Below are positions 3,992-17,014 of a stretch of DNA of 64,000 nucleotides, in pieces. The position numbers were made by a program, and so were the translations under genes. This stretch comes from Rhodobacterales bacterium HKCCA1288 (GTDB lineage: Bacteria; Pseudomonadota; Alphaproteobacteria; Rhodobacterales; Rhodobacteraceae), in NCBI GenBank assembly GCA_015693905.1, contig CP065161.1:2401001-2465000 (forward strand), in the 5' to 3' direction. Within the stretch, counting starts at the first letter, position 1, and each line of letters begins with the position of its first letter. Under the pieces are notes generated by a model. The model saw only the letters and a program-made list of their open reading frames with translations. It did not search any database and had not been told where the DNA came from.

Positions 3992-4303
3992 ATGCCAGAA
4001 CATATCCGTTTGATTCTACGCCACGCGGCCATTGGTGCCGTGATTGCCTTTGCCTTTGTTGCGATGCTGTTGGGTTTCAACCTTGCCAATCTGCGTCATC
4101 TGGTTCTGAACAGCGCTGATGGGGTTCTTGCCGTTGTGATGCTTTATATCTTTTGCACCATTACCTTCGGTTCGGCGCAAGTCGGGTATCGCATTATGAC
4201 CCTATCAGATGAGGACAAAGGCGATCAGGGTCGCCGTGATCGGGCCTTTACCCCCGAGATGCAGCCAATTCCCGTTCGTATCCGTGAGGATAAGCGCGGC
4301 TAA
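3992..4303 (+). CDS. Small conserved membrane protein of unknown function
   Basis: A 103-residue protein with two predicted membrane helices, about residues 10-30 (AAIGAVIAFAFVAMLLGF) and 43-65 (GVLAVVMLYIFCTITFG), and a charged C-terminal tail rich in Asp, Arg and Lys. AGGGAGGTG lies a few bases upstream of the ATG, a strong ribosome binding site. I recognise the type as a small inner-membrane protein common in Rhodobacterales but cannot assign a function. It stands alone between nusB and the structured RNA locus. Confidence 0.75.
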   Translation: MPEHIRLILRHAAIGAVIAFAFVAMLLGFNLANLRHLVLNSADGVLAVVMLYIFCTITFGSAQVGYRIMTLSDEDKGDQGRRDRAFTPEMQPIPVRIREDKRG

Positions 4304-4315
4304 GTTTAAGGCTGA

Positions 4316-4478
4316 GGTGACGGAACCGCATCCACCGTAGAGGCGTAATTCCCGAGAGCCTGTATATACAGGTGGGTGCCAGGTAACGCGACCAGGGCCG
4401 TGACAGAGCCAGCTCCCTCGGAAATGATTAAGGCCACCGGAATGTTGCCACAGATACGAATGGCGCAGAACCGTCACC
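4316..4478 (-). ncRNA. ssrS: Probable 6S RNA (structured non-coding RNA)
   Basis: A 163-nt element closed by a perfect 8-bp terminal stem (4316-4323 with 4471-4478). Read on the minus strand, the closing stem continues as CUGCGCCAUU against a near-complementary stretch on the other side with one bulged A. A large asymmetric internal bubble follows, then a distal stem (4417-4425 with 4348-4356, one mismatch) and an apical CCUGUA/UACAGG hairpin (4359-4372). This rod with a central bubble, and the length, fit 6S RNA, which binds the housekeeping RNA polymerase. The stretch UACCUGGCACCCACCU resembles what I remember of alphaproteobacterial 6S RNAs. A TTGTCG-N17-TAAGTG promoter sits at the right spacing. 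Strand and identity are inferred. Confidence 0.5.
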
Positions 4479-4482
4479 ACAT

Positions 4483-4511
4483 CACTTAGGTCTTTCCTTG
4501 GCTTTCGACAA
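4483..4511 (-). promoter_or_regulatory. Candidate sigma-70 promoter of the 6S-like RNA
   Basis: On the minus strand a TTGTCG hexamer (complement of 4506-4511) is separated by exactly 17 bases from TAAGTG (complement of 4483-4488). The predicted start falls about six bases further on, at or beside the first G of the closing stem at 4478. Alphaproteobacterial housekeeping promoters usually keep TTG at -35 and tolerate a weak -10, as here. An inverted repeat CTTAGGTC/GACCTAAG overlaps this region. Confidence 0.4.
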
Positions 4512-4542
4512 GTGGGGCAGGATCGACCTAAGCCTTGCTTTT

Positions 4543-4557
4543 GTTCCGTATTTGTTC
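4543..4557 (+). promoter_or_regulatory. LexA (SOS) box upstream of mmcB
   Basis: GTTC at 4543-4546 and GTTC at 4554-4557 are separated by seven bases, an exact match to the alphaproteobacterial LexA motif GTTC-N7-GTTC. It ends 13 bp before the ATG of mmcB. In Caulobacter mmcB is described as SOS-regulated, so motif and gene agree. Confidence 0.8.
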
Positions 4558-4570
4558 CAATCATGTGACT

Positions 4571-5029
4571 ATGACTGCCTCTGATCCGCACCCGTCCGAT
4601 ATAATGACCGCAGGCCAACGTCTTGCACGGGGGGTGTGTCGGCATTTCGCGCGGCTTGGTTTCACCACATTGGAGGAGTTTTGCCCCAAACGGGGCAAGC
4701 GTGTGGATGTCATCGCACTTGGGCCCAAAGGTGAAATTTGGATTATCGAGTGCAAATCAGGCGTGGCTGATTTCCGCAGTGACGGCAAATGGGATGGCTA
4801 CCTCGAATGGTGTGACCGTTATTTCTGGGCGGTTGATGCCGATTTCCCAACCGAAATTCTGCCCGAGGATACTGGGCTGATCTTTGCGGATGATTACGAT
4901 GCCGAAGTGATCCGCATGGGGCCAGAGGTAAAACTGGCCCCTGCGCGGCGCAAAAAGATCACGCATGATCTGGCGCAGACCGCCGCGCGGCGCTTGGCGC
5001 GGATGCGCGACCCGATGGGGCGTTATTGA
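4571..5029 (+). CDS. mmcB: MmcB family DNA repair protein
   Basis: A 152-residue putative nuclease of the PD-(D/E)XK type, linked in Caulobacter to mitomycin C resistance. After a short N-terminal helix region (IMTAGQRLARGVCRHFARLG) comes KRGKRVDVIALGPKGEIWIIECKSG, whose Asp and ECK residues fit the nuclease core. WDGYLEWCDRYFWAVD and a basic C-terminal tail follow. I use ATG 4571 because the LexA box lies immediately upstream; a longer in-frame start at 4535 would place the box inside the gene. It ends one base before the convergent DUF6324 gene. Confidence 0.88.
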   Translation: MTASDPHPSDIMTAGQRLARGVCRHFARLGFTTLEEFCPKRGKRVDVIALGPKGEIWIIECKSGVADFRSDGKWDGYLEWCDRYFWAVDADFPTEILPEDTGLIFADDYDAEVIRMGPEVKLAPARRKKITHDLAQTAARRLARMRDPMGRY

Positions 5030-5358: not shown

Positions 5359-5435
5359 GCCGCCTTAGCTCAGTTGGTTAGAGCGCTGGATTGTGGATCC
5401 AGAGGTCCCCCGTTCAAGCCGGGGAGGCGGTACCA
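5359..5435 (+). tRNA. tRNA-His (GTG anticodon), no G-1, A73
   Basis: A complete cloverleaf: acceptor GCCGCCT pairs with AGGCGGT (one G-U), the D-loop contains AGCTCAGTTGGTTAGA, the anticodon stem-loop CTGGATTGTGGATCCAG reads GTG, and the T-arm contains CGTTCAAGC. CCA is encoded. The base before position 1 is T, not G, and the discriminator is A73. This departs from the usual G-1:C73 identity pair and matches the form reported for many Alphaproteobacteria. Confidence 0.97.
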
Positions 5436-16309: not shown

Positions 16310-16903
16310 CTAGTCCCCTTTGGTGTTTTGCGCAAGCGCAGCATGGTGAAGGCCGCTTTCGGTGACGACCACATCCAAGGGTTGATCTGTTGGCTCAACG
16401 GGCAAGCCGCCAAATCGTTGGGCACTATAGGCAAAGCCAATCGCGCGCAAATTAGGCTTTGCTACGCGCAGACCTTCTAGGCTGCGGTCGTAAAACCCGC
16501 CCCCATACCCAAGGCGCTGGCCATGATCGTCAAACCCGACCAAAGGAACAATCACGATATCAGGGATCAGGCTTGCCCCTTCTGGCGGGATTTCTGCGCC
16601 AAATTCCCCCGTGATCAACGGGCCATCATAAGCCCATTCTCGAAACAGCAGCGCCGCATCCTTGGCCACGATTACGGGAAGGCAGAGGCGATTTTTCTGC
16701 CCCAAACGTGCCATTGCAGGGCGGGGGTCTATTTCCGTGCGGATGGGCATATACGCGGCGATGATTGCCCCCTCGACTGGCCCGATTTCAGCCAAAAGTC
16801 GCGCGGTCGCGGCCTCAGGCGCAGGCCCTAATTCGGTATGGGCCAATTTACGCGCGGCGAAGGCAGATTTGCGCAAGAGCGCCTTGTCATTCGGGGTTGT
16901 CAT
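16310..16903 (-). CDS. ygfA: 5-formyltetrahydrofolate cyclo-ligase
   Basis: Converts 5-formyl-THF to 5,10-methenyl-THF with ATP in one-carbon metabolism. The 197 residues include the N-terminal KALLRKSAFAARKL, the middle AAYMPIRTEIDPRPAMARL and the family signature GYGGGFYDRSLEGLR near the C-terminus. ATG 16903 is preceded by AGAGG; an ATG 33 bp further upstream is less likely. In many proteobacteria ygfA lies beside the 6S RNA gene. Here no RNA of that size fits upstream, and the 6S candidate is 12 kb away. Confidence 0.93.
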   Translation of the reverse strand: MTTPNDKALLRKSAFAARKLAHTELGPAPEAATARLLAEIGPVEGAIIAAYMPIRTEIDPRPAMARLGQKNRLCLPVIVAKDAALLFREWAYDGPLITGEFGAEIPPEGASLIPDIVIVPLVGFDDHGQRLGYGGGFYDRSLEGLRVAKPNLRAIGFAYSAQRFGGLPVEPTDQPLDVVVTESGLHHAALAQNTKGD

Positions 16904-17014
16904 TTTTGCCTCTTGCCTTTGCGCCGAAATCTTCATTCAACACGATCATAAGGTCGTGCAAGGGCGCAAGGATGTTTGCGCGCGACCATAACCCTGCATA
17001 AAGGCGACTTGAAG

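Follow-up and report, generated by a model that had tools for sequence, protein, structure and literature searches.

Positions 4476 to 4319, minus strand, of the analyzed stretch of Rhodobacterales bacterium HKCCA1288 DNA (64,000 nt, here called the window) almost certainly form a gene for 6S RNA (ssrS), the only one in this Rhodobacteraceae-type alphaproteobacterium; the RNA is predicted to act as a regulator of RNA polymerase. This is an ordinary, already known kind of gene and not a new kind of RNA, and the value of the result is that one housekeeping regulatory RNA has been annotated correctly. Membership in the 6S family, a fold with compensatory changes, a promoter, a template site and the neighboring genes were all computed for the locus.

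4319–4476, minus strand: 6S RNA gene (ssrS), about 158 nt, with probable ends placed by the RF00013 match and the limits of conservation in the genus

Identity and Strand of the RNA

In a scan of the whole window with Rfam, two matches reached or exceeded their gathering scores: a tRNA (5359–5432) and 6S. The match to the 6S model, RF00013, runs from 4474 to 4319 on the minus strand with 55.2 bits (E = 3e-08) and covers the model over its full length (1–187 of 187); the score is above the gathering cutoff of 46.4, although only moderately so. Searching the whole 2.66-Mb genome gave one 6S copy, at the window locus. The preliminary description had called the RNA probably 6S and had named the Rfam 6S model as a check. 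That check, once run, gave this full-length match above the curated cutoff, and with the covariation and the conserved promoter described below it bears the assignment out.

The alternative held open in that description was a new structured RNA with no relation to 6S beyond a similar shape. A rod shape and a folding energy by themselves identify no family, and an 8-bp terminal stem such as the one found here is common by chance, which is what such a reading could draw on. The RF00013 match, which spans the whole model and exceeds the curated cutoff, excludes it, and a template site conserved at the position of Escherichia coli U44 also argues against it, as does a gene order like that of the experimentally studied 6S RNA of Rhodobacter sphaeroides, as given in PMC8414754. 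A new RNA is thus highly improbable.

The 6S gene is assigned to the minus strand because the Rfam model, a lineage model and the conserved promoter all agree. The lineage covariance model was built from 55 relatives and scores the minus strand at 160.9 bits and the plus strand at 19.2 bits, the window sequence being part of its training set. Folding energy was rejected as a strand test. The minus strand folds at −63.1 kcal/mol (z = −2.3, with 5 of 200 shuffles equally good), and the plus strand folds comparably (z = −2.7), so energy cannot decide between two strands of about equal stability.

Fold and Limits of the RNA

The minus-strand fold contains the extended closing helix, bubble, distal stem and apical hairpin that had been described from the sequence. 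Its main elements are as follows.

4457–4476, minus strand: 5' arm of the closing stem, supported by an arm-swap test; in helix 1, 96.7% of cells are paired and 3 pairs are changed on both sides
4319–4342, minus strand: 3' arm of the closing stem, partner of 4476–4457 and supported by the same arm-swap test
4418–4443, minus strand: 5' side of the central bubble with the predicted product-RNA template; GGCC in 55 of 55 sequences, U 4430 in 54 of 55
4373–4418, minus strand: apical arm with terminal hairpin (GGGAGCUGGCUCUGUC... GGCACCC), helices 5–7
4359–4372, minus strand: 5-bp hairpin in the 3' side of the bubble, with pairing probabilities of 0.82–0.93 in the free RNA and 0.87–0.99 with the template blocked

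The 8-bp terminal stem first reported is exact in this genome (GGUGACGG/CCGUCACC), but relatives keep only UGACGG/CCGUCA, and the two outermost G–C pairs are specific to this genome. The stem by itself is also weak evidence, because exact inverted partners over a span of 140–200 nt exist for 107 8-mers of the 64-kb window. Across the four genomes of the genus, conservation starts at UGACGG and stops at CCGUCAC. Since the two outer pairs are not kept in relatives, the RNA is placed at about 4476–4319; the extent originally proposed, 4316–4478 (163 nt), had the right locus but overran the probable RNA by 2–3 nt at each end.

Conservation and Covariation

Among the four genus members, 97% of positions are invariant within the RNA, a share that drops to 61% in the upstream gene and to 53% in the DNA downstream. 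This pattern also bears on a protein-coding reading, in which a 146-codon minus-strand open reading frame (4205–4645) would take the place of the RNA gene. In this genome the frame is uninterrupted, but its product has no Pfam match, stops break it in one genus mate (L034), and conservation tracks the limits of the RNA and not those of the frame. A coding gene here is next to impossible.

Compensatory change, which had been named as a further check on the 6S assignment, proved abundant in relatives. The alignment used was made independently of structure, and the consensus structure was later derived from that same alignment. Standard pairing is found in 96.8% of cells in this structure, and 14 of 36 consensus pairs show changes on both sides with pairing kept. 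In the apical arm (helices 5–7), 90–100% of cells are paired and 7 pairs have changed on both sides. The covariation score is 0.245, versus 0.155 ± 0.005 when shuffled, and none of 500 shuffles reached it, a figure that is not a probability because the shuffles ignore relatedness. When partner columns are slid by one to three positions the signal is lost; this control preserves relatedness, though the structure came from the same alignment.

RNAalifold, run on the MAFFT alignment, shifted the register of the outermost stem because of end gaps, and this register was discarded. Because of this shift at the alignment ends, the closing stem was tested by arm swapping. Over 93 relatives the arms pair better with their own partners than with swapped ones, and none of 2000 permutations did as well.

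A Conserved Promoter

The correctly spaced minus-strand promoter reported from the sequence holds up, and it is widely conserved.

4484–4512, minus strand: sigma70-type promoter of the 6S gene, with −35 CTTGTC (4512–4507), a 17-nt spacer and −10 CTAAGT (4489–4484)

The −10 element sits 7–8 nt ahead of the expected 6S start. Of 93 relatives, 81 have the pattern TTG-N19..22-TANNT at about −37, versus 0.015 occurrences expected per 62 nt from the surrounding DNA; the stricter form CTTGNN-N16..18-CTANNT is present in 64 of the 93, and the promoter is also conserved within the genus. A generic scan for E. coli-type promoters missed the CTTGTC/CTAAGT site, the true pattern being CTTG...CTANNT. The site resembles CTTGAC/CTATAT, which we take to be the alphaproteobacterial sigma70 consensus. 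Those letters are absent from the main text of PMC3616915. The sequence thus points to an independent gene that is predicted to be transcribed from its own promoter.

Template Site and Proposed Mechanism

Polymerase binding, a product RNA and a growth-phase role would be expected of this RNA by analogy with the 6S family. It would fold as a rod whose central bubble mimics an open promoter, and as growth slows the rod would bind the housekeeping sigma70 RNA polymerase and block the enzyme. When nucleotides return, the polymerase would use the bubble as template for a short product RNA, with a predicted start at U 4430, and this synthesis would unwind the 6S RNA and release the enzyme.

The bubble carries GGCC-UUAA, and its GGCC is invariant in all 55 sequences. 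The second U, 4430, is the one kept in 54 of 55, including those with the variant GGCC-GAUAA, and the two A residues that follow are kept in 54 and 51 of 55. U 4430 was aligned with U44 of E. coli 6S, using letters that we take to be those of the E. coli RNA, because the second U is retained even in the GGCC-GAUAA sequences. In E. coli, U44 is the product-RNA start (PMC8876501). We therefore infer a start opposite U 4430, and the predicted product RNA, read rightwards from 4430 in plus-strand letters, would be 5'-AAGGCCACCGGAAU, beginning AAGGCCACCGG. U 4431 was dropped as a candidate start, U 4430 being the conserved position. A product RNA with a length of at least about 13 nt rearranges 6S and frees the polymerase (PMC8876501).

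The window RNA shares with E. coli 6S (ssrS, RF00013) the rod, the central bubble, the closing and apical arms and a template U at the equivalent position; the E. coli RNA is longer, at 184 nt versus about 158 nt. The two also differ in the hairpin of the 3' bubble, which in E. coli arises on product-RNA synthesis (PMC8876501). In the window RNA the free form is already predicted to carry this hairpin, which would become slightly firmer once the template is blocked; 91% of the hairpin's cells are paired, with covariation limited to one pair. Bacillus subtilis 6S-1 has a short 3'-bubble hairpin in the free RNA (PMC8876501), as predicted here, although it differs from the window RNA in phylum, sequence and product-RNA start nucleotide. 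On energy parameters only, the predicted behavior of the hairpin is nearer to that of B. subtilis 6S-1 than to that of E. coli.

6S RNA in the Family and Sensitivity of the Rfam Model

A 6S match is present in all 4 genomes of the genus, in 133 of 149 family genomes (RF00013, E ≤ 0.001) and in 83 of 115 genomes of a class-wide sample. Only 33 of the 149 family genomes pass the RF00013 cutoff, leaving 100 of the 133 matching genomes under it. The lineage model finds 6S in 11 of the 16 genomes that lack an Rfam match (91–161 bits, all outside its training set), so at least 11 of the 16 apparent absences in the family are false.

Low Rfam scores in the Rhodobacteraceae look like a lineage effect, as suggested by the high lineage-model scores of both the window sequence, on which the model was trained, and the untrained genomes. 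The Rfam 6S model under-scores the 6S RNAs of this family (for example, those of loci L098–L108), and a lineage-specific model retrieves them. Because Rfam puts most of them below its own cutoff, many Rhodobacteraceae 6S genes are probably missed by automatic annotation. One incomplete family genome (G008) has two 6S matches (C260 and C266), which may reflect a second copy or contamination.

Neighboring Genes

Three genes in the window bear on the setting of the 6S gene.

4571–5029, plus strand: mmcB-like gene, divergent from 6S (Pfam PF06319, 2.7e-46)
3992–4303, plus strand: gene for a protein of 103 aa that has two hydrophobic segments (hydropathy peaks), convergent with 6S and ending about 16 nt from its 3' end
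16310–16936, minus strand: ygfA-like gene (5-formyl-THF cyclo-ligase), 11.8 kb from 6S

The loci of relatives span 1–1.5 kb on each side of 6S, and the counts of neighbors are therefore lower bounds. Among the 93 relatives, an mmcB gene lies upstream and divergent in at least 53, a gene for a small membrane protein with two segments downstream and convergent in at least 50, and nusB downstream on the opposite strand in at least 39.

The 103-aa protein gave no match in Pfam or NCBIfam; its matches in genus mates are 90, 79 and 77% identical. These values coincide with those for Rhodobacterales bacterium LSUCC0387, a Roseicyclus sp. MAG and Rhodobacteraceae bacterium XHP0102, to which the source of the window is probably closely related. 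R. sphaeroides, a member of the same bacterial family, likewise has a small gene for a salt-stress membrane protein immediately downstream of 6S on the opposite strand, as described in PMC8414754, which cites Elkina et al. 2017; the likeness is one of gene order. Given that shared order, the 103-aa protein is likely the counterpart of the R. sphaeroides protein, an assignment based on position. The R. sphaeroides RNA has a knockout study behind it, whereas the window RNA is known from its sequence. In that knockout the opposite-strand gene was raised, according to PMC8414754.

This arrangement raises the question of whether the 6S RNA also acts as a cis-antisense RNA on the mRNA of the convergent membrane-protein gene, coupling 6S to a salt-stress gene. 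The convergent order in at least 50 of 93 relatives, often with 20–200 nt between the two, would fit such a coupling, as would the raised opposite-strand gene in the R. sphaeroides knockout, but that effect could be indirect, via the polymerase. The membrane-protein coding sequence does not overlap the 6S RNA, the gap ranges from 2 to more than 700 nt among relatives, and the DNA downstream of 6S is unconserved, all of which make an antisense role unlikely. It is quite unlikely, too, that 6S and the convergent gene form a conserved Rhodobacteraceae regulatory pair in which read-through or antisense contact between the 3' ends would tie the salt response to 6S transcription. The conserved convergent gene does offer a ready test of a link between 6S and the salt response.

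The distance of 12 kb to ygfA given in the preliminary description agrees with the 11.8 kb found to the 5-formyl-THF cyclo-ligase gene. In E. coli, ygfA is the neighbor of 6S, and in the window it is not; the ssrS–ygfA operon arrangement is absent here, as the ygfA-like gene is not directly downstream. Adjacency to ygfA is not the rule in the family, where mmcB and the convergent membrane-protein gene are the usual neighbors. A ygfA-like gene is adjacent to 6S in at least 7 of 93 relatives, lying directly downstream on the same strand at loci L013, L021, L050, L051, L067, L069 and L071. Because these seven keep it next to 6S, there are two gene orders within the family.
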